IMG/VR virus record: IMGVR_UViG_3300008117_000010
Coordinates: 46,527-110,526 of that record
Source of the DNA: a virus
DNA length: 64,000 nt
Direction: 5' to 3' (one strand)
Below are positions 12,501 to 38,000 of this stretch, in pieces. The notes beneath the pieces were generated by a model, which was not told where the DNA came from, did no database searches, and was given only the letters and a program-made list of their open reading frames with translations. Within the stretch, counting starts at the first letter, position 1; the number at the start of each line of letters is the position of its first letter. The translations under genes and the position numbers were made by a program.

Positions 12501-12777
12501 GCGTGTTGAAAGAGTATTTAACTTAACAAATCAATATAACATTGATTATGGTAATTTAGGTGGTAGTTCTTCTATAAGAAGAGATTCAAATGGTAATGTT
12601 TTCTTATATCAAACATCTGCAGAATATGATCCACAAACAGGAAGAATAATAAATACTCCGTTAGCACCTGTTTATTTAAAAGATTTTGATATTAATCAAA
12701 CTGTGGAAACGTTAAATCAAACCCATAAAGAAATCTTACAAGACAATAGTATTAACATAAAAAGAGATAGAAGATAA
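9562..12777 (+). CDS. Putative virion cargo/internal protein
   Basis: A 1071-aa protein starting MATYIQGVTDYIPEIQPFQP, a start I recognise as typical of a large conserved protein in crAss-like and related Bacteroidota phages. The first about 250 residues are helical. Residues about 270-430 are Gln/Lys/Glu-rich and likely coiled coil. A Gly/Ala-rich stretch near residues 725-755 (MTANLIPIVGPVAGVVSG) could insert in or contact a membrane. No catalytic motif is visible. Its stop overlaps the start of the 3239-codon gene (TAATG), so the two are translationally coupled. By position just upstream of the giant RNA-polymerase-bearing genes it is a candidate for one of the capsid/tail cargo proteins ejected with the DNA in crAss-like phages; that role is inferred. 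Confidence 0.65.
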   Translation: MATYIQGVTDYIPEIQPFQPDYNILAQALSTKEAQYQAGYDKISGIYGTLLNSNMTHSENIERRNKYFTQIENEIQKIAGLDLSRQDNVISAQQVFKPLINDKYIHKDMSFTKSFEDSLLASENYKRCVGENCGGQWWETGDLELAYKREEFANASLDQTLGMQNLNYTPFQNAYKMGMDFAKEMNFESQSVEITPDGRYQITRTNGQQMVPDLSQYMMATVGNDPKVADTYKTQAYVDRKNYIKANAQQYGSEEAAERQYFTEVFTAVEESNARRQAELEKQNQQIDNKKKLVEENKKTGINPAYDTDPEALLLGLDTQKEVVSINKKQADDIADLSNPSIVPNLPIDVLRSRVDAITASNSLQETLITAASNYANLTQKVEIKADEYGKMQVQHQYNMAEIAYKAQLDAEKEKKESETMADALGITDGVIVPGDVGQTDPNYNVQEEMIKREESLRGDGTAKTEHLSQVVVSQLQSVANDPNASPERRQEARRLLEDTYGVLETSTTYKEKTYLDEFVEEMKQDWESDDEFTWYNPLDLFDIAKQAADASWDYMFDDEKKESVKVEKEGYLRKDASGNLSLVKDWQNKAKTPFINDMKSANNVLELQGRIKNLITSEDFKQVIKGREDVILPDLYQAYNDIQGTEAELLAVQQAHLNNNKAVLSYIQSTPTDEYDPFIMEAREQFLDDKGNIRSLEEFAQAVMPVVANHPDREVWDWSSAAKGAMTANLIPIVGPVAGVVSGYRSGKVPMGELDQEDMMDEIESIYDEFKEDFSDAYANKDIPGITTEFSPLGGHTGAFSQGVSYQVDSMLGGMAPSNRAAGELLSAINQSGALANPKAAEATWIMGDGSMITPDVIDDQYSEDKENAIRAMMQQMSMDFLSSNPKNTTDGRPRFKITSYGTGAQNRNNVAITFTPSQAYLKGLIGSENLPGVYRSAFGKNMDQATFTLIIPREKLAQHTGSDGRPRETAIISRHTNTRVERVFNLTNQYNIDYGNLGGSSSIRRDSNGNVFLYQTSAEYDPQTGRIINTPLAPVYLKDFDINQTVETLNQTHKEILQDNSINIKRDRR

Positions 12778-21700: not shown

Positions 21701-22496
21701 TATTATTACAAGTAATATAACATTTTTAGATGCTAGAGCAAAAGATGTATCAATTGCTATTGTATATGATAATATTGAAGAGTATCCACAAAAGAAATTA
21801 GCCGTACTAGAACAAACTTTTAAGAAACAAAATCGTTTACGAGTTGCAGATTCAAAGAATATTGTCGATATTCTTGATAAGGACTTAGATACACTTCCAA
21901 GTCAAAGAAAGGAAACAGTTAAAATATCTGGTGAGAATTATGAATCATGGATAAAAACTGCTGAACTACCTTCTTTGTTTTTATTAATTAATGAAATAGA
22001 TTCAATGGAAGATCTTGATTTTCAATTTGAAAAAACAGATTTAGGTAATTTATCGGAAAAAAATTATCTTTATCTATTAGTTCGAAATGAAATCATTAGT
22101 AGAATGAAAAAGGGTATTGTAGATAAAAAGACATTAAAGAGTTTAGCACCTGCAGGTTCAGTAGTTATAATGGAAAATAGTCAGCTTTATCCTAGAGGAT
22201 TTGGGTATGTTACAAAATCAGGCAATGTTATGCCTTTATATCCTGAACAATCTTCAGGAGATACTGATTTTAAAACATATGGTAAAGCCCCATCTAGTTC
22301 TAATAAAGTAATTGCAATAATGCAATCTATGGAATTAGGTGAAGGAGAAACTACCACTGATGAAAATATACAAGCAAAAGAAAACTTAGAATCAATAAAA
22401 GGTAATCCTTTATCTACTGATGAGCTTAGTGAAATTGCTAATAACCCAGAGGATATAACAGATGCCCTAAATAATTTTAAAGATAATCTTTGTTAA
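12777..22496 (+). CDS. Giant polyvalent virion protein: decayed zincin, PD-(D/E)XK nuclease, ART-like domain
   Basis: A 3239-aa polyprotein-like virion component. Residues about 1200-1335 align in layout with the zincin domains of the next two genes but lack HExxH. Residues about 1640-1800 contain a PD-(D/E)XK nuclease core: Asp1736 in GQVDLVLY, Asp1750-Ile-Lys1752 in DLLILDIKT, and a downstream QLNIY (Q-x3-Y, RecB/Cas4 style). Residues about 1970-2110 resemble a type III effector HopA1-type fold (weak). Residues about 2147-2305 match the ADP-ribosyltransferase domain of polyvalent proteins (VYHHTNVKPEDFNFG, LVQRYGQP, VIYDAKSF). Linkers with DIERRR and YKxELAALE repeats follow. The start overlaps the upstream stop. 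Polyvalent proteins of phages carry such domains to be delivered into the host; the exact targets are unknown. ORF certain; nuclease well supported, ART-like moderate. Confidence 0.8.
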   Translation: MAEVNSTPNTFEVKSDSGNTINVIPKTPSTSSSKLYDEQATVGNSVSGPNPSPTGVSSTDRLNNAVLKIKDTTDPYAYAKPSAFNSTHTGLNFDRYSNHSQFRNLGFSPFRDNETIYNNNSSWFDDFGRAASQYGTLFSAGATSLFKNWGSLSNTTPDFDSANTMEKAMAIGSSSKSGFGASFTNFFLNSAYTVGVIAEIAAEEIALGLATGASGGGAAPAALTRTGLNIGRFTKAIGQLFKGANNISTARKVWNVAKKITPFGDTADLARGLIKGERATLRGIYKDYNSLDNFAKSKALFGQFYRDVREINAASSESKLEAGMVSNEVSAKLIDEFYRDNGRMPNFNESQVIHSQALQAGSEAYLYNMPAIYFSNKLVLEGALKGIKPFRSIMNKVPNNLRPVIKTVDGKKTAKVYDMNNIKSYLNLDSIRMLGKALRPKNLVGTGIRYTSANFAEGLQEVYQESLSAGLIDHYTNKNFGQERLGQAGLLNSLRLGAAELDKQNMALETFLSGFFMAAPIGGLQTIAFKKAPRLYQKYRNPEKYKQYIDDRKNAITKLENSLNAIINDPAKFANDFYANATEQNNLITRQLESEEAGDIAGAKNIKEQSFFEHVHTLLKHNMLDEFQTQMRDLLKLDDTSLKEAFGNGRESIEGDSFNAGLRDRINKAISRADRLKERYEESNEKFVNDYNPDTERDLYEAFEEGKKAYLFNEFMFERVGSRIQSMTGSLASNPKLSQVLGGDIAILFDTTAGGALQSKIKNLESEIKIYEQATTAEDKEILKQKQEEYEGLNTWYSAITAFERTYDESVKLENFDPSKAEKFVLQFPKGSPIEYTNTKGEKVEGKFVGVLGKNILIEIVNKKGKKQRVAVDRSKTAFMGEQDIDLSAQEIQFGDQTTLVDSMVYMLEALFGQVDSSFQIKGIEPLKGYLNTLAGPNGLNMTKDEMGEIFANVLDIVRLRKDSARHINALNILTDPDYFNSNVEKIGQLISTANRLAKIKVKAMLDDYERMMDNHHLLQELYEIGIFLDPNNVDALVNKNKIPSSFYAATNLPNIPELTQIDPSNPQHKDIYNKILEVLESYEALKGIEFVGKVDPTAISQTIPLGQQFQKQKGDERTILDLATEYGFNKDNPTDISAKELLQKIIDSQFGYLPDKQLARRLLSVIKDDINISFNRNHPVAVSYDTTNGIVINPNFSAANYRTGILNIEKVILNGLMQKLVNDNLTNAKFKADIENIKTKVQEAIVSGKLNAIIEQLEQQWNVVFPKNEKGDIIIDDVVGLKSIEQFVAMAMTDLSFQSILANTITEETNKSVWQEFLESLRNLLEQITGLYKGGNALEETLRITSTAILGEQITETQTTAEEINVATPLQQLPEDLTDALNVAWNELSPEDKQSYGSIDSWIQGSSAAATIINNYKKKKEKKEVGDDKKGLIQNTLTVAQLSYLRNKSGLEESDIFSMELPELIEIVNGKFRVLAPNENQNLTSAQLQEGRIIKTFNGITMTNVPIGTQNVVNPAVQQQLVQIGSKLEAIFSNVLGRGDASKVALLKNQAKAVGDNIINQIKQIYNINQLQYDENISSKIRTLLSDPSKYFFRVTSLNNIVEEIRKSTKDNIQAKLSEAIEKVLKEPDLSETSKNYTDRGTVIDEFFRMGLRGMLDQEINDTYVNRLLDLAYQNVQSKLNVQTPIIFSDKFKKDLTKTLKHVVDYMRINNYRALTDTNELFGSIGIIPVSGQVDLVLYNDKGDLLILDIKTMMPKNDRAKFKGYAESFEETLVEDRVGYVEKDTAQLNIYRELIQSLVGTELNKNNMRIQGMGILPLLVNMSIAGNGTRTISSIEISPSVSNVNNKNKPIGLYIPIIEKTTVELFPELYPQAPPATGIDATELARRKKLVGWTASYELATIAKREGIDLSKLSREEYANYAIKNGLKIDDSQLRTNPKHRNATSSQEVGEMLKADRASLSDVTKKAFNSFYNAIMAIVNKPQAERYLAQNVRLYSDTKNSNSWLYFGINNGTNTNESFTHKSYFSLKNLNDFSPELFRDFMIELQKRGYNGGVKIFQDLEVQGPALSDQVVMHGYSENDAKLALQVAKEFYGDKILESSYGKDEVINGKNMSYSQILSDKIKERVDSGNTQPLEGTTPPPAAPVVDVVTVYHHTNVKPEDFNFGTFQRGKEQVSQFGDGLNASSTTTPFLVQRYGQPIQGEIKDSDFIVIDANKTEKELYNELRAKGYNFNNPATGSYIGNDPAKEYDGTEKANEQPAIISLFNDFQKSNPEVKGVKVVNHIIGNQKVDPFYVIYDAKSFYGPGSLSKKAPVSDQAKKADIEIGKIANTEYEVKSDGVYYQGKKLNNPQNKTHRQLIETDIERRKQSELKFYTGNDLKQQITDLLNSEVPVPEITVKINNPLWNKQRAAQLEALDNNARIPKKIIRAAFINTQFIVNGEKYIIEKDSKYAYSNVRKESNNEIIGKITDGGYDYDGETINKDAFLKLLKNVDSPKISEFMENKINAKYKAELAALEGAKSTTPVSDIERRRQESINSIVETYNKGNDLIIGNAIITKADGTTESISDLKDVVTTGDPFQRLKDKINSRYKELAALEASVSNVEVKNTISNGDKIISVQTKPVTDEITDTAEDLFILPDNNPEGRIHINMEPLKDILVVPNNTLTIIDKKTGKEIINKELNPEGAVIFEAMQGRLFVVANINGQLVPFYKSSAGTSGKTQGAWYPFFGYTGAWLVKGGIDKATGKMSYSPEIDKVTDLLNENLVFPDKYIDRATNSIKNTKGEIIIDMNQAFKVNRLWQKEFGSQTGTGTNYEIKGLKENTRSESGLVALITGLNTTELDSSKTPKENSEWFNLISKNAELATSEGKKEEPIPSIINSKTLRDNKIIYISPVLTIPNEIKDDSAVLFYDDYAIAAINNLGFLKEAVTRDNYYQVINDVFYSGGYTSEQVLAFRNAINETAYNSIINALNESPEKVIITSNITFLDARAKDVSIAIVYDNIEEYPQKKLAVLEQTFKKQNRLRVADSKNIVDILDKDLDTLPSQRKETVKISGENYESWIKTAELPSLFLLINEIDSMEDLDFQFEKTDLGNLSEKNYLYLLVRNEIISRMKKGIVDKKTLKSLAPAGSVVIMENSQLYPRGFGYVTKSGNVMPLYPEQSSGDTDFKTYGKAPSSSNKVIAIMQSMELGEGETTTDENIQAKENLESIKGNPLSTDELSEIANNPEDITDALNNFKDNLC
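16360..16780 (+). other. Degenerate zincin-like domain in giant protein
   Basis: This segment has the same order of elements as the HExxH domains of the two downstream giant genes: a strand leading to the position of the metal-binding helix, a middle helix (SIEQFVAMAMTDLSF) and a terminal amphipathic helix (WQEFLESLRNLLEQITG). Where the others read YHEAWHAF or LHEFAHPI, this copy reads IEKVILNGL, so both zinc-binding histidines are gone. I infer an inactive paralogue kept for structure or substrate binding. The relationship is from visual comparison only. Confidence 0.5.
17690..18190 (+). other. PD-(D/E)XK nuclease domain in giant protein
   Basis: The core is GQVDLVLY (Asp1736) followed 14 residues later by DLLILDIKT (Asp1750, Lys1752), then a QLNIY helix typical of RecB/Cas4-type nucleases. 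An upstream helix with GTVIDEFF occupies the place of the usual N-terminal active-site helix, although its histidine is missing. The domain most likely cuts DNA. Confidence 0.7.
19215..19690 (+). other. ADP-ribosyltransferase-like (ART-PolyVal type) domain
   Basis: The start VYHHTN, an F-x-FG stretch, a G-D-G-L region, LVQRYG and a late VIYDAKSF strand follow the layout of the ART domain found in phage polyvalent proteins, where the first motif is usually YHGT. The reaction would be transfer of ADP-ribose from NAD to a host target. The Gly of YHGT is a His here, so activity is uncertain. Confidence 0.5.
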
Positions 22497-22506
22497 TTAA
22501 AAAACT

Positions 22507-25500
22507 ATGCAACTTTGTAATATTGATAAGAGTCAAAGAGAATTACTATATAGAGCTATTGCAGCTATAATTAACGACGCAATACAAAATAAACAACCAA
22601 TTGATACTAAAAAAATTGGTAATCAAATATATGATATAGTTTATAAAAAATCTCAGGATAATGCAAAAGCCTTGTCATATGTTTTATTAGTTCCAAAAGC
22701 AATAGATCAAATATTATCATTCAATGATAATTTCAAAGACTACGCCGTAGATAACAAGTTCGAATTTGATGAGTTAGCTAAATTAGTATCATCATTAAAT
22801 AAGTCTTCAGAAGAAACTATATTAAATGATATATCTACTTTCTTAGGAAAGATGTCTAATAAAAATTCATTTGAAGATGCACAAAAGGATTTACAAAATC
22901 TTCAAAGTGAACAAGCTAAAAATAAAAACTCTAAAATATTAGTACCATCATCTTATTTAGCTAAGCCCGAATCTCTTTATACAACAACTGGTCAACAAGG
23001 TTTGCGTGAAGATATCAATATACCAGATCCTTCAATGCAATTTTATTATGATATCATAAAAAAATTAAATACTAATTATATTAATGAAGAGGGCGGAGTA
23101 GTATATCCAAATGTTAAGAGCGGTTTATTTCTAAGTATAATTTCAGGAGTAAATATTGCTGATAATGAAATGTATACTAGAGATGCTGGAAATCGTAATG
23201 AGTATAATAAAAATTTCTTTCTAGCACTTACCGATAACCTTGGTAAAATAATGTATTTCGACACTAACTATAATGTAGTTGAAAGGAGTGCTGGTAAACC
23301 TATATACTTTCCGTTAAGAACTAATCTTGATTCTATTGTTGACAAATTAAATATTGGGCAATCACAACTAGAATCATTAAGAGAAGCCGCTAAATTTATT
23401 AATCAAGATAAGGTTAATAATAGAGTAGTAAATAAAATAACATTTAAGAGTGACGGATATCTTAGTACAAGTAATAGTCTACCTAAAGTAGATATAGCTA
23501 GTATTAAAAATAATAATATACTAACTTTTGTTACCGTACCAGGTAGCAATCAATTATATGTAAGCTCTAAAGGAGAATATCATTTTACAGTAGATGTTTC
23601 TTTTAAAGATTTTACAACAGTAAGAGCTAATCTCATTGCTGATTTAATTCTTAATCCAGTTTATAAAGATGGTAAACTGTTAAGTAATAATGATAAATAT
23701 AATATTCTAAGTAATTGGCTCTTTCAAAGAGAAATGAAATTTGGCCAAAAGAATAAAAAGTTTTATGTAACCCTTAATGGTCAATCACTTAATCTAGAGG
23801 ATAAAGAAGATTCAAAAGAAAAGATTGTTAACTTCTTAACTAGAAAGATTAAAACAGATAAAACAGAATATCAAAATAAATTTACATGGCAAAGCCGCTT
23901 ACTTGAAAATAATGAAACAATATCATTATTTAGTTTAAGTGTTGAAGACGGTAAATATATTTATACAGATAATCCAGTCTCTTATCAAGAATATTTAAAG
24001 CAAATAACATTTGCTAAAATTCAAACTGTTGATGGAGAAATATTTCCAATGAATGGATATATTGGTTATGAGCTTGGTAATAGAATTAGTAAGCCAAAAC
24101 CAGTTGAAACAAAAGTTGAAATAAAAAAACAAACTCCAGTTACATTAGATACGAATGAATATAATCGTGCAGTAAAAGAAGCAGATAGTAAAAAACCAAT
24201 TGAACAAAACTTCTTTGATGGTTATAGACCTAATTCAGATAAAACAAAAATCCATACCATACGACCTGAAATCACATCTATATATGGTAAAGGTGTAAAA
24301 ACACTTAAACTTGTTCAAGAAGGTATTAGAACAAGATCAACTCGCTTAGCTAATTGGATGAAAGAAAATAATCCCAAAGTAGGTGATTATTTTTGGCAAA
24401 TAAATAAAAAGAATCCAAGTGAAAAAGTACTAACTCGAATTACTGCAGTTTATGATAAAACTGATCCCCGCTTTAAAAACAATTGGTTTAAAGAAGGATG
24501 GGTTGATTCAGATTTTAAATATGTAGAAGACTATGCAGGTGCTATAGAATTTGAAGTTATTAAATCAGTTGTTGCAATAGGTGTTCAACCTCAAGTTACT
24601 ACTGAAGAAAAATTCGATTTAATACCAACTCGTCCGATTTCAGAAATAGAAAAGGAAATTGAATCATTTGAAAGTGAAATTAGATATGCAGCTGGCCAAT
24701 TAGAACAGCTTCAAACAAAAATGGAGCTTGTAGAAGATGAAGAAACTATTGAATCTTTTATTTTATCTCAATTTACTCCTGTTAATCCTGAGTCAGCTAG
24801 AAAAGAAACAGGAACAAACATTGGAACAAAACAAGATATTAATCCAGCATTATTAAATAAAAGAGGTCCAAGTGTTGAAAGACTTGCTGAAGAAATTGGT
24901 TCATTAGCAAGAGGAGTACCTTATCATTTTAGAGCAGAGGATGATTATATCCGTGATCAAATTATTGAAATTTTAGTAAAAGGTAAAGCTAAATATAAAG
25001 AAGAATTACAAGGTGGTAATCTTCAAGATATAAAATATTATGAAGAAAGAATTAATGATATATCAAAAAAACTTGATGAGTTAAATGTTGAATTAGAAAA
25101 TGCTAAACTAGCGCCACCAGTTTCTACTCCTCAAGAAACAGTTCAAATAGAATCAATTGAAGAATCAATTGTTAATGAATCTGAGACTAAAGAAGAAGAC
25201 ATTGATTTAGGTGAAATTGATCCTAATGATTTAAAGAATTTATTAGAAAAAAGAATTCTTCAAAAAGAAAGCGAAGTAAAAGCAACAAATGAAAAAATTA
25301 AAAAAGCACTACCGTGGTATAATAGTATAAAAACTAAGAGCGGTAAAAAACTCTCTAGTTTTTTACCAATTAAAGAAATGTTTGATGCAGTTAATACATC
25401 AAATCCAAATGCTGTTGCACACTGGTCAATGTCCGGTATAACATTATTTAATGGTAGTGATTACTCTGATTTATATCATGAAGCTTGGCACGCATTTACT

Positions 25501-28500
25501 CAGCAGTTTTTAACTACTGAAGAAAGAAATAATTTATATAATGCTGTTCGTGGTAAATCAGGAACATTTGAAGACTACAATGGAAATATTGTTGAGTTTT
25601 CATTAGCCTCAAAAAAACAAATAGAAGAATTTCTTGCAGAAGAATTTAGAGAGTTCATGTTGCGAGATGGTAAAGGTATGTATGAAAAGAAATCAATCTT
25701 TTCTAAAATCTTTAATAAAATTCGTGAGTTACTATTATGGTTATTTGATCGTACAACTTATTATGATGTCTACAATAATAGTAAAGCAACTAGAAATATT
25801 TCAAGACTTTTTAATGAACTTCGTATTGGAGAGTTAGCAGAACCTGTAAATGAAGTTGATCCAGACTTTGCTATTAAAGGTTTAGATAGAGTAATTAAAG
25901 TAAAAGATAGTAGCGATACATTTACAATAGAGGAGAGTAAAACTATAAGTGATACAATAGATAGTTTATTTAGTGAGTATAGTGATAAAGTAAATAACGC
26001 AACAAAAGTTAAATCAGCATCTATTCAATTACAAATAAGTCCAACATTCCAATTAAATGCATATAAGTATGCAAAGAATAGATTAATTCAAAGGAAAAAT
26101 GAATTAGTTCAAAAAGTAAAAACAAAACTAAGTGAAAAGAAAATTGATGATCTTAATACAGAAGAACTCAATTTATTTCGTAAAGACATTAAAAATATCA
26201 ACTTATTAAAAAAAGCGATTAAAGCTTTTATAATTCCTGAGAATCTTAACAATGTAAAAAGTGCAAAAGAAATTGATGGAATTATTAGTAGTCACCAACA
26301 ATTATCTGAATACTTAAAAGATATTGTTCAATTAGAAGAAGAATATAACATTCTTAATAATAATGTTATTGCAGATAGAGCAGGTAATGCAAACTCATTT
26401 GAACAACTTACAGATCCCAAACTCTTATATACATTTGGTGGTGTATTTGAAAGAGATGAGAAAGGAGAAATTATAAAAAATTCTTTAGGTTTTAATAAAA
26501 CAATGGCTCCTAAGCGTGTATTTAACAAGCTTAGTAACATACTGGAGACAAATGATAATGAAAAAAGACCGAATAATATAACGGCGCTTTATAAAAAAAT
26601 GGAATCTTTACAAAAAACAGATCCATTTATTAAGGACATACTAAATAAATTAGGTAGTCCATATACTACTAATACAAATGTTAATAGCTTATGGTCAGCT
26701 TTAGAAGTTTTAATCTTACCTGTAGCACATGTAATGCGTGCTGAAATTGTAAAGGGAGATAACAATTCTATATCTGCTGTATTTGTAACAAATGCTTCGC
26801 TTGAAACAGAATCAGCAATCCGTTCATTTGCAAACTATACTGCTGTACTTGACTCCTCAGATCCAAATAACTTTTTATTTGAGAATGCTGATGGTGTTAA
26901 TATAATAGACCTGAGATCTATTTTTGTACCAACAGAGGGTAGACCAAAAAATTATGGTAACAGTAAAGCTGCTCAAGAAAACCCTTTAGAATTTTTAAGA
27001 GCCATTGGTATATATTTACCAAATGATCCTAATGTCATAAAAGAGTTAATGACAGAGGAAGCACAGGAATATATAAATCGTTTATATAATGCCGCTTTAG
27101 AAATTAAAAATTATAATTATAGTAAAGGCACTAAAGAAAGTGACAAAATAGAAGTCTTTAGTATTAAAGAAATACTAAAAGATTATTCAAAAGATCCAAA
27201 ATATAAAAATGTTAAGAAGCTTCCTAAAGGACAAAGCGTTGCCAAAAAATTCTTTACAAAACTTTACTTAAAGTATTCTGATCAATCAAATAACTTAAGT
27301 ATTACAACAGTTGATGATAAAACTGTATTCCAAAGATCTTTGCCTAATACATTAATGATGAAAGCACAAATTATAAATAGTGCTGATTCATTTAATAATT
27401 TAGTAAGTATTCCTGAAACTGAAGATTTAGCAAAAGAAATAAACGGTAAAACAAAAAACCCTTGGTCAAAGGCATCTCAATTATTAAACAAAGTTTTGTT
27501 TGATGAAAAGGGTAATAAAAGAGAAGGTGCTAGAATAGATATTGCTTCTTTAGATGGATTAAAAATAAGATTAGATGAAGTAGATTTAGCTGCCATTAAA
27601 TCATCAGACTCAGATCCATACTCAAAACAATTATTAGATATTATTTTCACATTAGAATATGGTGTATCTGAAGCAACACGACACGCGGGTAAAAGTTCAA
27701 CATTCCTTTTTGAGATAACAAGAAGTGATGGCTCTAAACATTATATTAATCTTGAAAAGTTTACAAGAAATATTAGTAAAGGTGAAAATATATTTAATAG
27801 TGGTATTGTAGATGCCGTAAATATTTTTGTAAATTATTTAGCTTCAGAATATGAGCGCATTCAACTTGCAACCAATGATCCAGAAAATAAAAATATAAGA
27901 ACTGGTAATGGTAAATCCATGGCCGAAGTAGGATCAGAATTTTTATTGTTTAAAGATATTATACCTAAATCAATACTAGACAATATTAAGTCTATTGAAG
28001 GTGTTGAAACATATGAAGATTTTTTACAGCATTTAGATAATAATGTTTCTTTAAGAGACTCTATAAAGAAAAACATATATAATTACTTAAACAACGTAGT
28101 TAAACAAGAATTAAATGATTTCAATAAACTAAATGTTAAAAAAGAATTCAATGATATTCTTCATAAGAAAATGAAATCAGCAAGTCAAAGAGCATTAAAG
28201 GGTGGTAAAATAACTAAAGAAACAGAACTCAATTATAATCAATTACGCAATAGTGCTATTACTGCTTATACAATAAATTCATTAATACATAACATTGAGA
28301 CTGGATTACTTTTTTATGGTGATCCAGCAATATTTAATAATAATAAACAGGATTATCAGAAACGAAATTCGGGTGCAGGATCAACAGGTATTGTAACCCG
28401 TACAGATGATGCCTATTTACAATTCATTAATAGCAAAGGTGGTCTAGGAAAAGTAAAGAATGAACAAAGAAATTTTGATGGTACCTTAAATACGGTAGTA

Positions 28501-31500
28501 TTAAATGATCCTAAGACTACTGCAAAACTATATAATGAATATATAAAAGCAGCTAAAAATAAAGAAAGTGAAAGATTAAAAAAGCTTAAAAAATCACAGA
28601 AAGAAATAGATATAGCACTTAAAAAAATAGAAGAAAAGTTTTCTGAGGCATATGAAAATATGAAAGAAGCAGATGCCCAAGGATATATTTCTTTTTCTGC
28701 ATATAGAGCTTTGTCTTGGGGTATGAATAAATGGACCCTAGCTCAAGAGCTTGGATATCAAAAAATAATGAATGGTGAAAAAATAGATAATGCTGATATT
28801 CTTTATCCTGTTCGTAAATACCAATATTGGGGATCTTTACAAACAAAAGGATTACCAGCAACAGCCTTTCATAAATTCTCATTATTACCACTAATTCCAA
28901 CATTAACGGAGAATGCACCACACCTGAATGCACTTCGAATGAAAATGGAAAATGAAGGTATTGACTACTTAACATTTGAAACAGGATCTAAAGCAGGTAC
29001 AATCGCAATAGATAATAAACTTGATAATCTTTATAAGGGAGATTCAAGCGATCGTATTTTAGATTTACCAGTAGAGTTTACAAAGAATGTAGTATTTGCA
29101 AAATTTTTAAAGGAACAGTTATCTATTGCTCCTCAATTTAAAGAGACTGTTACCTTCTCTACGCAGTTAAGAAAACTTGTGATTGAAGGTTTATGGGAAG
29201 AAGGGGAACCTGTTGGTAAAAATGAAGAAGAAAAAAATAATGTAAAACAAAAAACTGCAGCATATATTAATGCAGTTAATAACTTAACTGAACTTCTATT
29301 TATAGAATTAAAAGATAAAGCAGGTATAAATCCAGAGACAAATAAGGTTGAAAATAAAGTAAAACTTATTGATTATCTAACTAATGCTCTTGAAAATAAG
29401 GATACACCTTATCATATAATTGAACAAATAGCAAGTCTTAAGACTCGATTACAAACCGGAATATCATTTGACTATTTAATTCAAGCAAGTGATATTGAAA
29501 AACTTATAACAGGTCTTGTATATAAGAAAGTTATTAATCAAAAAGTATATGGTGAAGGACTTATTCAAGTTTCAACTGCAGGATGGGCAGTTAAAAAAGA
29601 TGACAACCTAAAATTCTATCGAACAGAAAATGGTGTTGTTAAACCAATGCAAGTTAAAATTGCAATGCAAGGTGAGTTTCTTAATCTTCTACAACATCCT
29701 GATGTATTAGATATAGTTAGTGCAGAAGAAAATATAACTGAATTACAAGCCTTAAATCGTTTATTAAAAGATGAAGCATGGGTAAATAAAAACCGTGAGA
29801 TGATTACTTTAATGGGTCCTCGTATTCCAGTACAAGGATTGAACTCCATGGAAGTAATGGAAATTGCTGAATTCTTACCACGCAATTATGGAAACGTTAT
29901 TGTTGTGCCATCAGAAATTGTTGGTAAAGCAGGTTCAGACTTTGACGTTGATAAACTTAGTATTGTATTCCCAGGAATTAAAGTATATAATGGAGTACCA
30001 CAAGTAGTTAATTTTAATAAAAATTTATTTAAGCAAACAACTAGAAGTCAATTAATAAAAGAAAAAGTAAGATTAGAAAAACTTGTTGATGTTACATATG
30101 AAACTCGTCGTGGTCTTTATGAAATGATAAAAGACGATGCAATCTTTACAGATGAACAAAGAGTAGCACTTGAAAGATTATACGCAGAACATAAAGAACA
30201 AATGGCTGAAGTTAATATACGTATTAAAGAACTTGAAGCACAATGGGAAGAAACAGGAGGAGCTGAAGTATTATTAAAGGGAACTATTCCTGATGACTAT
30301 TCATTACAAAATACTCTTTTAAATACCTATGCTGAAAGAGCTAGAATACGAAAGCAATTCCAAAATAATAGATATCTATATAAGTCAACGTTTATTGACG
30401 AAGATTTTAAGAATGATTTAGAAGCAATTGAAAATAAGATAGATGATGTTACTAAGCAGATTGATTCTATATCTATAGCTGCAGCAGAATATGATGTATT
30501 AAAATCTACAATTGATATACTATTATTACCACAAAACTTTGTAAGCTTAATTACTCCAAATACAACCATAGACGCAAAAGGATTATCAAAAGAAATGCGT
30601 AAAAGAGTAGACTTTGGATATTCTACAGAAGATAACTTTCTTAAAGAGAACAAAGGGTTTTCACCTACTCGTATATATGAACCAAAATATAATAGAGAAA
30701 AATTAGATTACAATAAAGTAGGTAAAGATTCACTTGGTATTGGTGCAGTAGATAATACCTTTAATGTATTATTAAATTATGTTGGAGCATATTTAAACAA
30801 TGATGTCGCTATAACAAAGGATTATTCCCGTAGAATTGTAATTCGTGGTTTAAAGCATAATAAATATAAGGATACAGAAAACATATCATTAAGTAAAATA
30901 TACGATGCTAACAATGAATTTAAAATATCTGATATTATAAGCCAGTTTATTAATGGTTGGGTGGATGTTGAAAAGGATGAGTGGATATTCTTTATTCAAG
31001 GTAATAAAGAATTAAGTAGTACACTTCTTTTTATGATACAGGCAGGTATCCCATTAAACGATGCTGTGGTATTTCTAAATCAACCAATTATACGAGATTA
31101 TTATAATCGTGTAAGATTAGCACTTTCACCAGCTTCTGAAATTTTAGAAGAAGGTAAAAAAGATAAGTATGTTCGAAATAAAGTATTTGATGACTTAATG
31201 TATAATAATGATATATACAGAAATATTTATGATGGTGAAAAGGAAAAAACAAAAAAATCATTTTCAAAAGCAGGAAGATTTTATGCAATATCAACTATAG
31301 CAGAAAAATATAAGTTTAATAAAGAGTCTTTAGAGAGCAAGCTATCTAATCCAATTGGTACTTATAGTCAAGACGACTATGCTATTTTAGGACACTTTTT
31401 TGAATTAAGAGAAAATGCCAATTCATTAACAAATATTAAAATGGCATTAAACTTTGATACAAAAAGAGAAACAAGTATTGACGAAGTAAAAGAAAAACTA

Positions 31501-34500
31501 AATAAAAGAGGTCAAATATACGGATCAATTTTACCTAAAGAGATTATTAATAAGTTATTAAATGAATCTCCAATATCTAGCTTTAATATCCAAAAAGATA
31601 TTGTAGCAATGATGGAAGCATTATTTCCAGTAAGAATGAGTGACGTAGTTGAGGATGCAATAAATGATACAGATGAAACTGTATGGAAAAACATTGGTGA
31701 AAATTTAAACTTTGATGATAGAACAAAAATTGTTGATGCAAAAAATGCATTCAGAAATGCTTTAATTCCCTATTTGTTTCAAGAATCATATTATAGTCTA
31801 AATGAAGAAGAGTATAGAGGATATAAAATAAAATATACTTCAGACTATGCAGATAGAGTTGTTGTTATTTCTCCTACTGAACCAGATGTAATATTAATTA
31901 ATCAGACTGCAGTAGATAACTTAATTACTAGTACAAATAATAATTCTAAGAAATTATATATGCCAGAGTTTATGCTTACTGCTTACGGTGTAGCATCACT
32001 TCCGGTAAATACATTTAAAAACATTAATGAAAATATTGGTTTAAGAAAATATTTAATTGAAAGAGAAATTCAAAGAACGTTAGATGAAAACAGTTTTGAA
32101 AAAATTTCAAAGTCATTATTATATAAGACATATAAAAATAAGCTTAAAATAGAAGATGTAAATAATCCATATCTGTCAGTAAATAATCAATTAACTTCTT
32201 TAACTAGTCAATTAAATATTTCTAAAGAAGAAGCCTATAATTTATTAGCATATGAATTAGTGTTAAGAGATAAAAGTCTTAATAATCTTAATTTCCCAGG
32301 CTGGCTTTTCTATGATACTAAGAATGAACAAACTTCATATGGTTCTCAATTAAATTATATTAAAAGAAAATATAACTTTTTAGAAAGAGAATTTTCTGTA
32401 TTAGATGCACTTGAAGTTAGAAGAAATAAAAATACTAATGAAGTTAATATAAAACTGAAAGACACACGTATTACTGGTAGTGAAAAGAATATATTCCAAA
32501 GCCAGATTAATATGTTAAGTGATCCTCAAAAACTGCTAGAAATAAAATCAAGTCTAAGTGAAGCAGATATAAATGAAATAACATCTTTCTTTAAAAGGTT
32601 TCATGTATTTGCTTATTTGCAAAGTGCTGCAAATTCAACTAGTAGCACATATAATTTATTACCAATTGCTAACCCAATGGTAATTGAAAATTTAATTGCA
32701 CAACCAATTCAAGACTTTGCTAGTTTTGAATATGATCAGTTTTCGGAAAATAATGAGGAAGTAACAAATTACATTATTGAGCGGGATAATAAAATAGAAA
32801 CAGTTGAAACTGCAATTAAAAATTATAATAATATATTATCGGCTCAATTTAAAACTAATCATGTCACATTAATAAAACAACGGTTTGAATGGAATGCTGA
32901 TACATTATCACTACAAGAACAACAAGCTGCTGAAGAAGATAATCTAAAGTTATTAAAAGCTCAAAATCCTTTAGGATTAGTTGAAGTACCAACTAAAGCT
33001 GAAAAAAATATTATTAAAAATAAAGGTAAAAAAACAGTATTTTCTTTAATTACTAATTCGCTTGGTCAAGCTTATTTATATGAATCAGAAGCTAAAGGTT
33101 TAGATGCTGTAGTAATAGAAAATCTAGATACCTTAAAAGATGATTATTTATTTATTGGTAATACTGGAACTGAAACTTTTACTGATGGAACTATTTCTAA
33201 AGTAGATGATGGAAAGTTATTACAGAGTCAAGCATTTCTTGGTGTTCCCTCTAGAAAAATCAAAGGAGATTTAACTGATGAAACTCTTGAGGAAAATAAA
33301 AAATTAATAGATGATGCTATTCAAAATATACTTAATCGTAGGTCTAATAAGCTTTTAGTATTTAATAAAAACGGATACGGTCAAAACTTAATTGGAAGAA
33401 ATCCAAATAATGCATCAGAACTTAAAGGTAAAGTTACAGCACCAAAAACTTTCCAATACTTATCTCAGAAATTAGCACAACATTTTGGTTTTGTAAATCC
33501 AAATTCAACTTTACAATCAACAGTTGATGAGTCCAAAGTAAAAACTATATCAACAGATTATGGGGTAGTTCAAGCTGAAACTAATCCTACTAAAGAATTT
33601 GATCAAAAATTAGCAGATGCTATTTATCAAGATGTTAAAGATAATTCTTATGTTGAAAATGGTAGTAACACTGCACAAAGAATGTGGGCTAATGGATTGA
33701 TGTGGAAAGGTAATAACACTAAAAAACCAACAGGTCAAGTTTTAAAGGTTCAACCAGCACAAGTAGATTATAATGCTAATGGTAAACTTACTCCTGTAAA
33801 AACCCCGTATTTTTATGATTCTGAGTACAATGATGGAACACCGGTAGCACCAATAACTAACTTAGATTTCTTAAAAAAACACATTGAAAATACTTTGGGT
33901 ATTGATATGTCAGACTATGATGTAAGCTTAAATAACATATATGAAGAAGGTCATGATTTATTTAGACATACTGACATTGATGAATCAAACACAGCTAAAA
34001 ATTATCCTGTAATTGTATACGTTTTTGGCAATAATCATAAAGTAAGATTTGATGATAACGGTGGTAAAAGAGCGATGGGTAAAATGGTAAATCCAAAAAC
34101 TCTTACATTAAAAAATGGAGATATATATGCTTTTGGTGTAAATGGTAAAGGTAGATTTGAAACTGTTCATGATGTAGTGGCTTCACCAAAAACAAATGAT
34201 AATTTTCCTGAATTAATAGGAAGTGATGGTAAACCAACTAAAAAATATACTGTTACTTTTACATTTAGAAGAGCTGCTGATTTAGAACCGGGTATGCCTA
34301 AAACACCCGCTAATTTTAATACTACAAATACTAATACAACAGTAACTGTAAATAAACCTAGTGAATATACTAATCATTCAGGTGGTGCTAAAGGTGCAGA
34401 TACTGCATGGGATGTAGAAGCTAAAAAATTAGGATACCTTACAAATGATGTTCATTGGCGTGAACCTGGTAAAACTGAAATTGATAGTCTAGAATTAAAA

Positions 34501-35052
34501 AAACTTGGACGAACAGCTACTCCAATGTCTCCTGAACTATATGCTAGAGGTAAACAAATAGCAGATATAATTGATGAATCATTTGGTGAAGATCCAAATA
34601 GAGCAGGTTCTCATTATAGATATCGTAATTATGCTCAAGTTGCAAATTCAGATGCCATATTTGCAATATCACAAGGTTTTGGTGTAAGACCTAAGGATCC
34701 TAAAAAACGATATGCACCATTAGATAGAGGTACTTTATATGCAATTTACGGTGCTATTTATGATGGTAAACCAGTATATGTATATGATCAGATGGCAAGT
34801 GTTTGGCGTACATTTAATAGAGAAACAAAAAAATGGCAAGAAACAGGTATTCCAAAACTTACTCAAAATTTTGCTGGTGTCGGTTCAAGAAATTTAGAAG
34901 AAAATGGTAGACAAGCAATAATAGATGTACTAAAAAATACATTTGGTCAAAACGCTCCATCCTCAATAACTCCATCAAAAATTTCAGTACCTTTAACATC
35001 ATTAGAAATATACAATGCAATAATTAACGATATTAAATCCTGTGGAATATAA
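22507..35052 (+). CDS. Giant crAss-like virion RNA polymerase polyprotein with zincin, AlkB-like and SLOG-like domains
   Basis: A 4181-aa protein. Residues about 560-695 resemble an ASCH/PUA-like fold (weak). Residues about 980-1090 hold a zincin (HEAWH, His991-His995). The segment around residues 2370-2500 carries the polymerase signature: a DPBB-like strand set (GPRIPVQGLNSM, FLPRNYGNVIVVPSEIVG) leading into GSDFDVDKL with Asp2478, Asp2480 and Asp2482, equivalent to the DFDGD metal site of the crAss-like phi14:2 virion RNA polymerase and YonO. Residues about 3750-3930 are an AlkB-like 2OG-Fe(II) oxygenase (HxD at 3821-3823, His3888, Arg3921). Residues about 3955-4150 are SLOG-like. It would be ejected to transcribe early genes. 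It is roughly twice the size of phi14:2 gp66 (about 2180 aa). Its stop overlaps the next start (TAATG). The polymerase call is strong. Confidence 0.88.
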   Translation: MQLCNIDKSQRELLYRAIAAIINDAIQNKQPIDTKKIGNQIYDIVYKKSQDNAKALSYVLLVPKAIDQILSFNDNFKDYAVDNKFEFDELAKLVSSLNKSSEETILNDISTFLGKMSNKNSFEDAQKDLQNLQSEQAKNKNSKILVPSSYLAKPESLYTTTGQQGLREDINIPDPSMQFYYDIIKKLNTNYINEEGGVVYPNVKSGLFLSIISGVNIADNEMYTRDAGNRNEYNKNFFLALTDNLGKIMYFDTNYNVVERSAGKPIYFPLRTNLDSIVDKLNIGQSQLESLREAAKFINQDKVNNRVVNKITFKSDGYLSTSNSLPKVDIASIKNNNILTFVTVPGSNQLYVSSKGEYHFTVDVSFKDFTTVRANLIADLILNPVYKDGKLLSNNDKYNILSNWLFQREMKFGQKNKKFYVTLNGQSLNLEDKEDSKEKIVNFLTRKIKTDKTEYQNKFTWQSRLLENNETISLFSLSVEDGKYIYTDNPVSYQEYLKQITFAKIQTVDGEIFPMNGYIGYELGNRISKPKPVETKVEIKKQTPVTLDTNEYNRAVKEADSKKPIEQNFFDGYRPNSDKTKIHTIRPEITSIYGKGVKTLKLVQEGIRTRSTRLANWMKENNPKVGDYFWQINKKNPSEKVLTRITAVYDKTDPRFKNNWFKEGWVDSDFKYVEDYAGAIEFEVIKSVVAIGVQPQVTTEEKFDLIPTRPISEIEKEIESFESEIRYAAGQLEQLQTKMELVEDEETIESFILSQFTPVNPESARKETGTNIGTKQDINPALLNKRGPSVERLAEEIGSLARGVPYHFRAEDDYIRDQIIEILVKGKAKYKEELQGGNLQDIKYYEERINDISKKLDELNVELENAKLAPPVSTPQETVQIESIEESIVNESETKEEDIDLGEIDPNDLKNLLEKRILQKESEVKATNEKIKKALPWYNSIKTKSGKKLSSFLPIKEMFDAVNTSNPNAVAHWSMSGITLFNGSDYSDLYHEAWHAFTQQFLTTEERNNLYNAVRGKSGTFEDYNGNIVEFSLASKKQIEEFLAEEFREFMLRDGKGMYEKKSIFSKIFNKIRELLLWLFDRTTYYDVYNNSKATRNISRLFNELRIGELAEPVNEVDPDFAIKGLDRVIKVKDSSDTFTIEESKTISDTIDSLFSEYSDKVNNATKVKSASIQLQISPTFQLNAYKYAKNRLIQRKNELVQKVKTKLSEKKIDDLNTEELNLFRKDIKNINLLKKAIKAFIIPENLNNVKSAKEIDGIISSHQQLSEYLKDIVQLEEEYNILNNNVIADRAGNANSFEQLTDPKLLYTFGGVFERDEKGEIIKNSLGFNKTMAPKRVFNKLSNILETNDNEKRPNNITALYKKMESLQKTDPFIKDILNKLGSPYTTNTNVNSLWSALEVLILPVAHVMRAEIVKGDNNSISAVFVTNASLETESAIRSFANYTAVLDSSDPNNFLFENADGVNIIDLRSIFVPTEGRPKNYGNSKAAQENPLEFLRAIGIYLPNDPNVIKELMTEEAQEYINRLYNAALEIKNYNYSKGTKESDKIEVFSIKEILKDYSKDPKYKNVKKLPKGQSVAKKFFTKLYLKYSDQSNNLSITTVDDKTVFQRSLPNTLMMKAQIINSADSFNNLVSIPETEDLAKEINGKTKNPWSKASQLLNKVLFDEKGNKREGARIDIASLDGLKIRLDEVDLAAIKSSDSDPYSKQLLDIIFTLEYGVSEATRHAGKSSTFLFEITRSDGSKHYINLEKFTRNISKGENIFNSGIVDAVNIFVNYLASEYERIQLATNDPENKNIRTGNGKSMAEVGSEFLLFKDIIPKSILDNIKSIEGVETYEDFLQHLDNNVSLRDSIKKNIYNYLNNVVKQELNDFNKLNVKKEFNDILHKKMKSASQRALKGGKITKETELNYNQLRNSAITAYTINSLIHNIETGLLFYGDPAIFNNNKQDYQKRNSGAGSTGIVTRTDDAYLQFINSKGGLGKVKNEQRNFDGTLNTVVLNDPKTTAKLYNEYIKAAKNKESERLKKLKKSQKEIDIALKKIEEKFSEAYENMKEADAQGYISFSAYRALSWGMNKWTLAQELGYQKIMNGEKIDNADILYPVRKYQYWGSLQTKGLPATAFHKFSLLPLIPTLTENAPHLNALRMKMENEGIDYLTFETGSKAGTIAIDNKLDNLYKGDSSDRILDLPVEFTKNVVFAKFLKEQLSIAPQFKETVTFSTQLRKLVIEGLWEEGEPVGKNEEEKNNVKQKTAAYINAVNNLTELLFIELKDKAGINPETNKVENKVKLIDYLTNALENKDTPYHIIEQIASLKTRLQTGISFDYLIQASDIEKLITGLVYKKVINQKVYGEGLIQVSTAGWAVKKDDNLKFYRTENGVVKPMQVKIAMQGEFLNLLQHPDVLDIVSAEENITELQALNRLLKDEAWVNKNREMITLMGPRIPVQGLNSMEVMEIAEFLPRNYGNVIVVPSEIVGKAGSDFDVDKLSIVFPGIKVYNGVPQVVNFNKNLFKQTTRSQLIKEKVRLEKLVDVTYETRRGLYEMIKDDAIFTDEQRVALERLYAEHKEQMAEVNIRIKELEAQWEETGGAEVLLKGTIPDDYSLQNTLLNTYAERARIRKQFQNNRYLYKSTFIDEDFKNDLEAIENKIDDVTKQIDSISIAAAEYDVLKSTIDILLLPQNFVSLITPNTTIDAKGLSKEMRKRVDFGYSTEDNFLKENKGFSPTRIYEPKYNREKLDYNKVGKDSLGIGAVDNTFNVLLNYVGAYLNNDVAITKDYSRRIVIRGLKHNKYKDTENISLSKIYDANNEFKISDIISQFINGWVDVEKDEWIFFIQGNKELSSTLLFMIQAGIPLNDAVVFLNQPIIRDYYNRVRLALSPASEILEEGKKDKYVRNKVFDDLMYNNDIYRNIYDGEKEKTKKSFSKAGRFYAISTIAEKYKFNKESLESKLSNPIGTYSQDDYAILGHFFELRENANSLTNIKMALNFDTKRETSIDEVKEKLNKRGQIYGSILPKEIINKLLNESPISSFNIQKDIVAMMEALFPVRMSDVVEDAINDTDETVWKNIGENLNFDDRTKIVDAKNAFRNALIPYLFQESYYSLNEEEYRGYKIKYTSDYADRVVVISPTEPDVILINQTAVDNLITSTNNNSKKLYMPEFMLTAYGVASLPVNTFKNINENIGLRKYLIEREIQRTLDENSFEKISKSLLYKTYKNKLKIEDVNNPYLSVNNQLTSLTSQLNISKEEAYNLLAYELVLRDKSLNNLNFPGWLFYDTKNEQTSYGSQLNYIKRKYNFLEREFSVLDALEVRRNKNTNEVNIKLKDTRITGSEKNIFQSQINMLSDPQKLLEIKSSLSEADINEITSFFKRFHVFAYLQSAANSTSSTYNLLPIANPMVIENLIAQPIQDFASFEYDQFSENNEEVTNYIIERDNKIETVETAIKNYNNILSAQFKTNHVTLIKQRFEWNADTLSLQEQQAAEEDNLKLLKAQNPLGLVEVPTKAEKNIIKNKGKKTVFSLITNSLGQAYLYESEAKGLDAVVIENLDTLKDDYLFIGNTGTETFTDGTISKVDDGKLLQSQAFLGVPSRKIKGDLTDETLEENKKLIDDAIQNILNRRSNKLLVFNKNGYGQNLIGRNPNNASELKGKVTAPKTFQYLSQKLAQHFGFVNPNSTLQSTVDESKVKTISTDYGVVQAETNPTKEFDQKLADAIYQDVKDNSYVENGSNTAQRMWANGLMWKGNNTKKPTGQVLKVQPAQVDYNANGKLTPVKTPYFYDSEYNDGTPVAPITNLDFLKKHIENTLGIDMSDYDVSLNNIYEEGHDLFRHTDIDESNTAKNYPVIVYVFGNNHKVRFDDNGGKRAMGKMVNPKTLTLKNGDIYAFGVNGKGRFETVHDVVASPKTNDNFPELIGSDGKPTKKYTVTFTFRRAADLEPGMPKTPANFNTTNTNTTVTVNKPSEYTNHSGGAKGADTAWDVEAKKLGYLTNDVHWREPGKTEIDSLELKKLGRTATPMSPELYARGKQIADIIDESFGEDPNRAGSHYRYRNYAQVANSDAIFAISQGFGVRPKDPKKRYAPLDRGTLYAIYGAIYDGKPVYVYDQMASVWRTFNRETKKWQETGIPKLTQNFAGVGSRNLEENGRQAIIDVLKNTFGQNAPSSITPSKISVPLTSLEIYNAIINDIKSCGI
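25440..25770 (+). other. Zincin metallopeptidase domain
   Basis: The motif HEAWH (residues 991-995) follows a hydrophobic strand, with a downstream helix containing EEFLAEEFREF that may provide the third ligand, and a terminal helix (FNKIRELLLWLF). This is the layout of the MPTase-PolyVal family of phage polyvalent proteins. It may release domains from the giant proteins; that is inferred. Confidence 0.7.
29938..29955 (+). other. RNA polymerase catalytic metal-binding loop (DFDVDK)
   Basis: Three aspartates spaced one residue apart (2478, 2480, 2482) follow a Gly-Ser turn at the end of a double-psi beta-barrel-like strand. This is the magnesium-binding centre of two-barrel RNA polymerases, here with Val where DFDGD has Gly. 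Confidence 0.85.
33750..34300 (+). other. AlkB-like 2OG-Fe(II) oxygenase domain
   Basis: Iron ligands HxD (RHTDIDES, His3821/Asp3823) and His3888 (ETVHDV) and a 2-oxoglutarate-binding Arg (TFTFRRA, near 3921) occur in correct order and spacing, with the usual preceding loop (NNIYEEGHDLF). AlkB-type enzymes demethylate or hydroxylate nucleic acid bases. In a virion RNA polymerase protein it could repair or strip modifications from the entering DNA; that is a hypothesis. Confidence 0.75.
34370..35045 (+). other. SLOG-like (Rossmann, DprA/YspA-related) domain, apparently permuted
   Basis: SGGAKGADTAWD (from about residue 3957) is the nucleotide-binding loop of SLOG-type folds. A middle strand (NSDAIFAISQGFG) and KPVYVYDQ follow, and the strand FAGVGSRNLEENGRQAI, normally at the N-terminus, comes last. 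The order suggests a circular permutation or an incomplete second copy. Confidence 0.65.
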
Positions 35053-38000
35053 TGGCAACATGTGTAATAAATACTCCTGAATTTGAAGCAATAGAAAAAG
35101 TAACTAATAGTGCTACCGCATGGAAAGAATTTGCTAGATCAAAAATTACTGGAGAAGCAATGCGCTCTCCAGAAACAGTGCTAGAAGAATCATGGTATAG
35201 AGGACAATTTCTAAATAAAAAACCAGGTGAACCATGGATAGATAGAATGGATGGTTTTCAACAACAAATGAATTCATGGCCTGAGTATAATCTTTTAGCT
35301 AATCCAATTAAATATGATTTTAAAGGTCATAATGATGCAGTTAGTCTTTCTGCTATAAGACAATTAGCAGATAGGCTAAAAGAAAAAACTGGAATTAATT
35401 ATGAAATTATTTCACAAGAACAAGCAATTGAGTTAACAAAGCATTTAGATATTAAACAACAATATGTTACTGGTAAGCCAGCATTTTATTTAGGAGGTGT
35501 AGCTTATTTAGTTAGTGATTTTGTTTCTGCAACTAATGTGCTACACGAATTTGCACACCCTATTATTAAAGCAATTGCTGTAGATAATCCAAAACTATTC
35601 AATAATCTTTATACACAGATACAAAATCAATATCCTGATATAATAGAATACCTTAAGAGTGAATATGATTATCTAGATATTAATTCAAGTGAATTTAAAG
35701 AAGAAGCAATTGTTACTGCACTTGATTTATTTCATAGCATAAAACAAGAAAATCCTAAAGCAAAAGGTCCATTTATAGATTTATTAAATGATATACTTTA
35801 TGCTATAAGAAAATTTTTAAGAAAGATTACTAATAATAAAGTAAAGGTTGAAAATATAAATGAGTTCTCAACTTTAGAAGACCTAGCTAATCTAATGACT
35901 GATGATACTACATTTGAGTTAGATGATCAAATAATTACTAATAGTGACTTTGCAGCATATGCTTCGACATATAATGATTATTTAAATGAATTGAGAAAAG
36001 CTGCTAGTCCTGCGGATATACAGGGGGCATTACTTAATACATATGATATTGTAATTGAGCAATTAAAAGCATTAGAAAATAATCCTAATTATCGTTTTGC
36101 AGCTGAAATATTAAAAGATAAATATGGTGAATTAGAAGTTCAAAATATTGTTAAAAATATTAATCGTGTTAAAGATGATGCAAAAGCTTTAAAAGATCAG
36201 GCTAAAATGGATAGAGCTCGTGCTAGTGAGTTTCTTAAATCTATTTTACTATTAGAAGAAATGATTAAAAAAACTAATGCTAGTTTAAGAACACTCGAAA
36301 AAGAAGCAAAAGAAAACGAAAATAATAATAGAGATAACCGAGATGTTCTTCAGAATGTTTATTATCTCAATAATCTTTTAAACGGTTGGAATGAATTAAT
36401 AAACGAATATATAAATACACTTGAAGAGAATAATGTAGATATAGAAAATGATTTCTATAAAATGCTTAGTGCAATAAAAAGAAAAATAGAAAACACACAA
36501 TCAATTGCAAATAACATATACACATATAAAATTACCGATGTTTTAAGTGCTGAAATTCAACCATTGATGGAAGCTATTGACATGCGTTATGAAGCTCTAT
36601 TAAAATTTTATAAAGATCGTAATGCGCCACAATGGAAAATAGCAGATGTAGAAAAAGAATATGCAGAAATAAAACTTAATCCTGGAAAAATCCAGGAAAT
36701 GCTAAAAGGAGATTTAGGAGATGCACATTTCTTGAATTCATTTTTAGAAGGTTATATGAATAACCAAGATCCGGTTGTATTTGCATTTGCTTCTTATGTT
36801 AAAAATGGATTGAATGATCTTAATTCTAATTCATTAGAAAAAATGAATAAGTTTCTAGTTGAGCTAGAACCATTATTACAAGCAGCTGGATTTAATCGTA
36901 ACAGATTATCTGATTTAGGTGAGCGTTTAACTCAAATAGATTCAACACCATATAGAGAAAGAAAAGAATTAAAATTTAAAAAGGTATATAAGTTCATTAA
37001 TCCTTGGAAAGGTCAAGATGAAGCAATTGCAAAAATGAACGAGGCAATTAATAATGCTCGTAACGTAGCAAGAGAGTCAGGTGATTACACAGAAGTTCAA
37101 AGATTAATGCAAGAGAAAGAAGACTTTCAGCGTAAGTATTTTTATACAGAGTACACTCAAAAATATTACGATAGATATAACATCTTAAATAAAGACGAGT
37201 TAGGTAGAGAAGCAAAAGATTTATTAACTACAATTGATTTTAAAATAAAAGAATTACAAAACTCTATTCTTTCACCAACTCAAGATATTGTTGGACTAGA
37301 TGAACTTGATGCATTACAGCGTGAGAGAAAATATCTTTTTTCTCTTACTGATGAGAATGGTAAACTAAAGTCAGGTAGAGATCTTGAAATTGCAAAGCGT
37401 TTACAAGAGTATAATGCTTCTGCAAAAGATATGTTTACTAAAATAACTTTTCCAGGATTATTTGAACAAGCATATCGTGAAGCAGAAAACTATTTTATCG
37501 ATCAAGGATATGAAAGAGGTACGCCTGCCTATGAGCAGTTAATGAACGAATGGTTAAAAAAGAATTCTAAAATAGAATTAAGTTCTGATTTCTATGTAAT
37601 GCGTGCTAATTTATACGCTGAGATTCAAGAACTTGAAGAACAATATAGAGACCTCGTATCTCAACTTGGATACGATCAAGGAATAGCGAGAACAGAAGAA
37701 GAAATGCTAGATCTATATAAAGAATTAAATGATATTCTATATAGACATAGAGATGAAAGTGGTCAACCACAGGGATCACTAATGAATAAAGAAACACTTG
37801 AAAGAGTTTTCTTTTTAGAAAGTGAAATTGAACGTATAAAAACTGAAGCTCCAAGTTTTAATAATCTTACACGAGATGAAAATTCTTGGTTAAGAGATTA
37901 CTTTGATCGTATTAAAGCTGGTGAAGAAATATCAGATGAAGATAAAGCTAGAGCAAGAGAGTTAAATAAAAAGAAAGTATCATTAAAAGGTAAAAAGTAT

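Follow-up and report, generated by a model that had tools for sequence, protein, structure and literature searches.

Crassviruses are known to carry a transcription block of large multidomain proteins (PMC7886860). In phage phi14:2, gp66 (PDB 6vr4) is a virion RNA polymerase of 2180 aa with a single-chain core and the catalytic motif GSDFDxDK, and gp67 is a virion protein by mass spectrometry. In crAss001, gp47, gp49 and gp50, of 262.5, 154.5 and 276.9 kDa, respectively, are present in the virion, in which other disulfides have been seen by cryo-EM, and the cargo is thought to exit partly unfolded with the N end leading (PMC10172136). Longer chains are found among the fused polymerases of the Suoliviridae (cr113_1 gp38, cr130_1 gp79, cr4_1 gp26), which are amber-recoded and have a zincin motif that precedes DFDxD by about 1400-1600 residues and, in two of the three, a SLOG tail, with NADAR and DUF7831 in addition in cr130_1. 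Public polymerase proteins of this family with zincin motif, SLOG and NADAR reach 5801 aa, and the SLOG-bearing ones are named 'DprA-like'. The Schitoviridae (N4-like phages) also eject a giant polymerase (vRNAP) with an HExxH segment, though its single-subunit core is unrelated; for the N4 vRNAP, a domain with a conserved HExxH has been described (PMC12633501).

Here we analysed a window of 64,000 nucleotides, positions 46527-110526 of a 110,526-base IMG/VR virus record, and in it three consecutive genes whose products we call A, B and C. The locus shares with phi14:2 the arrangement of the three genes and the placement of cysteines at the protein ends, whereas gp66 lacks the zincin motif of B and could not be matched to its AlkB-, SLOG- and ASCH-like domains. 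With the Suoliviridae polymerases it has the zincin motif and the SLOG tail in common; in these, however, A and B form one chain without an N-terminal coupler cysteine, and an AlkB domain was not matched.

The polymerase and its neighbourhood

The reading frame of B, at 22507..35052 on the + strand, starts with ATG and is uninterrupted, and so the 4181-aa protein claimed in the first-pass annotation is real; its chain is indeed nearly twice as long as the 2180 aa of phi14:2 gp66. It is preceded by A (3239 aa, 12777..22496, +), homologous in part to phi14:2 gp67, and followed by C (1892 aa, 35052..40730, +), homologous in part to gp65. Genes for terminase, portal and major head protein lie upstream in the same record, and a block of small to mid-sized genes occupies 40911-62514 on the strand opposite to A-B-C. 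A has a weak PD-(D/E)XK match at residues 1632-1765 (17670-18071, +). C has its own HExxH (LHEFAH, residue 165), as do its homologues phi14:2 gp65, cr4_1 gp27 and cr130_1 gp80, and the sequence around this motif appears similar to that around HExxH in the vRNAPs of schitoviruses.

B is similar in sequence to crAss001 gp50 (E 5e-21) and phi14:2 gp66 (E 7e-16). Its conserved core, residues 1880-3010 (28144..31536, +), was modelled with AF2 from a 59-row alignment (pLDDT 84, pTM 0.83). The first-pass annotation had named beforehand a structure comparison around residue 2478 as the test of its polymerase claim, and in a structure search the core model found the phi14:2 virion RNA polymerase (6vr4_A, E 1.1e-31, prob 1.00, TMq 0.63), while no other solved structure was matched at E < 0.001. 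Both the conserved core of the gp66 family and its GSDFDxDK motif are present, with DFDVD at residues 2478-2482 (29938-29952, +). By sequence similarity and model match, B is thus identified as a crAss-like virion-type RNA polymerase of the gp66 family, as had been proposed.

Relatives of the polymerase segment in annotated phage records are essentially crAss-like phages, with best matches of 25-26% identity, and an alignment-based scan of IMG/VR yielded relatives of the B core with up to 38-40% identity. These low identities point to a distant, mainly environmental-type crassvirus. A DNA search of phage and plasmid records found no close relative, and an IMG/VR scan with the single protein as query found none either, while the alignment-based scans succeeded.

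Accessory domains of the polymerase

Of the additional domains claimed for B, the AlkB-like 2OG-Fe(II) oxygenase domain at residues 3686-3935 (33562..34311, +) stands up well to comparison. The Pfam family 2OG-FeII_Oxy_2 matches B itself at E 1.8e-5, with a score that falls short of the family's curated cut-off, but relatives of B match the AlkB-type family down to E 6.8e-23, and a four-sequence profile of the domain matches the solved E. coli AlkB (E 7e-8). The HxD...H...R residues, i.e., the putative iron ligands and the C-terminal arginine, are invariant, with HTD at residue 3821. A SLOG-like domain is likewise predicted, at residues about 3945-4155 (34339..34971, +), where HSGGAKGAD at residue 3957 conforms to a GGAxGxD-type nucleotide-binding motif (HSGGAxGxD). 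The segment is 32-33% identical to crAss-like 'DprA-like' proteins and 36% identical to a segment of a schitovirus vRNAP, and the tail of one B relative matches Pfam cpYpsA SLOG (2.4e-9); by sequence, no solved structure was matched. SLOG-like segments were seen in the vRNAPs of Klebsiella phage Pylas (L002, residues 958-1160) and Alteromonas phage PT15-A5 (L005, 1118-1251). The presence of SLOG in schitovirus and crAss-like polymerases, whose cores are unrelated, suggests that it was recruited twice or passed between them.

The claimed zincin domain (25114..25896, +) fared less well. Its HExxH...E motif is conserved: the sequence HEAWH is found at residues 991-995 (25477-25491), and H141, E142, H145 and the downstream E191 (alignment numbering) are invariant among 34 aligned relatives. 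The zincin fold, however, was not confirmed, since neither a model of the segment (pLDDT 71) nor a profile found a match among solved structures, and the motif is absent from part of the family. An ASCH/PUA-like segment at residues about 536-698 (24112..24600, +), overlooked in the first-pass annotation, is proposed from motif resemblance; Pfam has no match for it in B or in L035, and in four relatives (L035, L040, L069, L070) a similar segment is placed in the C-terminal tail.

Residues about 3570-3670 of B (33214..33516, +) correspond to a segment common to the tails of several relatives; DUF7831 was found in 10 of 60 such tails, while B has no Pfam match there. The AlkB-, SLOG- and ASCH-like domains are gained, lost and reordered among relatives, with the order of AlkB and SLOG swapped in L034, and other tails carry NADAR, ART-like, RNase H, helicase or DUF7831 families. 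Judged from this domain content, the C-terminal tail of the B family is a site of domain exchange, and the NADAR and ADP-ribosyltransferase-like families hint at an ADP-ribose-related counter-defence. In the 5801-aa cr130_1 gp79, the C-terminal part (L012) holds NADAR, DUF7831 and SLOG together. Neither the length of B nor its domain combination is exceptional, because cr130_1 gp79 and cr113_1 gp38 (4328 aa) already join zincin motif, polymerase and SLOG. In L068, L166 and L174, intervening reading frames seem to split the C-terminal part of B, possibly because of an intron or intein in the polymerase gene.

Terminal cysteines follow the fusion state of neighbouring chains

What is most unusual about the locus is where the cysteines of B and its two neighbours are placed. 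A, B and C together contain four cysteines in 9312 aa, where about 130 would be expected from the 1.4% cysteine in other reading frames of the same phage, and all four are at ends that would meet. The sole cysteine of A is its last residue (3239/3239; 22491..22493, +), B has Cys4 (22516..22518, +) and Cys4179, third from the end (35041..35043, +), and the sole cysteine of C is residue 4 (35061..35063, +), with none at its C terminus. The chance of finding one cysteine in each of four 12-aa ends is about 7e-11. The same pattern is present exactly in phi14:2, where the only cysteine of gp67 is residue 1797 of 1797, gp66 has residues 3 and 2179 of 2180, and gp65 has residue 3. In crAss001, gp47 has its cysteine at -3, gp50 at 5 and about -9 with one internal, and gp49 at 5.

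Across the family, cysteines follow a simple grammar: the first protein has one at its C end only, the middle protein at both ends and the last at its N end only, with interiors nearly free of cysteine. Among B relatives, almost every end has a cysteine close to it, and overall cysteine content is 0.059%. Among the representatives, 15 middle proteins inserted into the chain have a cysteine near each of their two ends. In L033, for example, a B protein ending in ECY is followed by proteins of 762 aa (Cys 3 and -3) and 300 aa (3 and -1) and then by one starting with MKC; since the first Met following a stop was used as the start throughout, N-terminal positions could be wrong by a few residues. 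Furthermore, the tails of B in some phages are separate two-cysteine proteins in others.

To compare separate with fused chains, we kept 152 non-redundant representatives at <80% core identity and called A+B fusions by homology to the N-terminal part of A, blind to cysteine and limited by detectable homology; a PHROG-region profile of A had proved too narrow for this purpose. Within an end window of 12 residues, chosen on the discovery set, an N-terminal cysteine is present in 79 of 81 unfused B proteins and in 0 of 31 A+B fusions (Fisher 1e-25), i.e., in 44/44 versus 0/4 of the discovery set and 35/37 versus 0/27 of the validation set (<80% core identity). This comparison leaves out 15 proteins of uncertain fusion state, 13 of which have no N-terminal cysteine, while L105 and L117 have one together with an upstream protein ending in cysteine. 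The upstream reading frame ends in cysteine before 61 of 65 unfused B proteins and before none of 30 fusions. A+B fusions have lost the N-terminal cysteine and retain the C-terminal one.

The other junction behaves alike: a C-terminal cysteine is found in 137 of 139 B proteins not fused to C and in none of four that are, a comparison less blind than that for A+B, because the B+C fusions were sought after these proteins had appeared as exceptions. The B-C cysteines are gone in the B+C fusions L123 and L108 and in the single A+B+C chains L235 (5677 aa) and L196 (5547 aa), and the latter two have no terminal cysteine at all. A FastTree phylogeny of the core requires six changes of fusion state, and in all six independent pairs the cysteine changes along with it (p 0.031). 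Cysteine placement in these proteins therefore depends on whether the neighbouring chains are separate or fused.

There are exceptions. L114 has no terminal cysteine and 10 internal ones, L166 is perhaps an interrupted gene and L138 probably an undetected fusion, the reading frames upstream of L110, L249 and L255 may not be A, and some gut-phage proteins have many internal cysteines (e.g., 25 in cr130_1). At some B-C junctions (L109, L119, L207, L243, L174, L175), a short reading frame without terminal cysteine precedes the protein with the N-terminal cysteine. These intervening frames encode 162-171 aa and are possibly homing endonucleases.

A proposed coupling of the ejected proteins

We consider it likely that the cargo proteins are coupled head-to-tail in the virion, and that the couplers are disulfides. 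The constant C-end-to-N-end polarity, the exchange of cysteines for fusion and the cysteine-empty interiors fit a disulfide-joined thread. From this pattern we infer a bond, an order of ejection, an uncoupling step and roles for the accessory domains. The C-terminal cysteine of A would be joined to the N-terminal one of B, and the C-terminal cysteine of B to the N-terminal one of C, resulting in one continuous N-to-C thread that would exit via the tail in sequence, starting with A. Chain interiors would be kept free of cysteine so that wrong bonds do not form. The reducing host cytoplasm would open the bonds, whereupon the proteins could act separately and B could transcribe early genes. The AlkB-, SLOG- and ASCH-like domains of B would be co-delivered enzymes or binders, which perhaps protect or repair the entering DNA or oppose host nucleotide-signalling defences.

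This proposal recalls two-chain (A-B) toxins, in which one disulfide ties a catalytic chain to a translocating chain until it is reduced in the cytosol of the target cell. There, too, a single thiol link keeps the parts connected while they are delivered and opens once they have arrived; however, the toxins are unrelated proteins, and the crassvirus couplers would connect separate phage gene products, several in series. In the literature searched, we found neither non-reducing gel or crosslink data on the bond nor a description of terminal cysteines in crassvirus cargo; the phi14:2 structure paper lay outside this search and may mention them.

A link of a different chemical nature would leave the thread intact. 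The terminal cysteines could share a metal ion, engage in other thiol chemistry or make a transient contact during assembly, and the genetic evidence fits any one-to-one contact of ends. Many crassvirus hosts are anaerobes, in which disulfides form less easily, and gut anaerobes may disfavour such bonds, which speaks against disulfides; yet the terminal cysteines persist in their phages. A gene of the thioredoxin/glutaredoxin family was not found in the genome of the window, but it may be missing from an incomplete record, or the enzyme could come from the host. Nevertheless, each end offers a single cysteine, beside which we saw no further conserved ligand, crAss001 virions are documented to contain disulfides (PMC10172136), and the depletion of internal cysteines is the outcome expected from avoiding wrong disulfides, such that we regard a non-disulfide link as unlikely, if worth keeping in mind. 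It is yet more improbable that the cysteines are packaging or sorting signals, read by a scaffold, portal or capsid protein on unlinked cargo. Some contexts at the N terminus, M(x)C-P-N for example, do recur, as a signal might, but the C-terminal contexts share no common motif, with the cysteine anywhere from -1 to -9. Moreover, there is no cysteine at the N end of A or at the C end of C, and fusion removes both partner cysteines precisely at the fused junction.

That each protein closes on itself through its two ends would suit B and the inserted middle proteins, which have one cysteine per end, but we rejected such self-cyclisation as hardly credible, because A and C have a single cysteine each and A+B fusions drop the N-terminal one alone. 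Equally far-fetched is an origin in nucleotide signals at gene junctions, such as overlap or ribosome re-initiation. The A, B and C genes are closely spaced in most genomes; however, in crAss001, cr85 and cr128 the A gene lies apart from B on the opposite strand, and A keeps its C-terminal cysteine nonetheless. The location of crAss001 gp47 on the other strand, not adjoining gp50, thus argues against a gene-junction effect, as does the paired pattern at only 5 of 170 junctions of neighbouring genes outside the chain and the use of both TGT and TGC codons for the terminal cysteines. Native chemical ligation was rejected as well, since the N-terminal cysteine is at position 3-6 and not first. 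The first-pass annotation had instead pictured a self-excising polymerase, whose zincin cuts the chain and whose further domains protect DNA or modify it. Many relatives do conserve HExxH...E, and the AlkB- and SLOG-like domains are there; the motif, however, is missing in several others, including phi14:2 gp66 and crAss001 gp50, no cleavage site or other evidence of cleavage is known, and with the fold of the segment unmatched, we think that the polymerase is improbable as a protein that cuts itself out.

Coupling by disulfides remains the reading that we prefer, and it can be put more generally. On balance, the separately encoded ejected proteins of crassviruses probably form a single N-to-C disulfide train, extendable by proteins with one cysteine per end, which the different redox conditions of virion and cytoplasm would uncouple and in which gene fusion and disulfide would be interchangeable. 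Cysteines are entirely absent from the ejected proteins of N4 (gp50/51/52), T7 (gp15/gp16) and P22 (gp7/20/16), and from the vRNAPs of Pylas and PT15-A5. That N4, T7 and P22 eject their proteins without such couplers is a point against the proposal; on the other hand, ejected proteins may commonly avoid cysteine, and crassviruses would add couplers to this.

What is claimed as new here is the coupling only, the polymerase itself being of a known kind. How several giant proteins exit in order via a narrow tail is an open question in podovirus ejection. If true, a cysteine-coupled train would provide an answer for those phages that are most abundant in the human gut, and would explain why ejected proteins avoid cysteine. 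It would also provide a rule, applicable from sequence, by which new injected proteins could be recognized, namely little internal cysteine, one cysteine near each end and a position beside the polymerase, and such a rule could reveal possible counter-defence factors as well.
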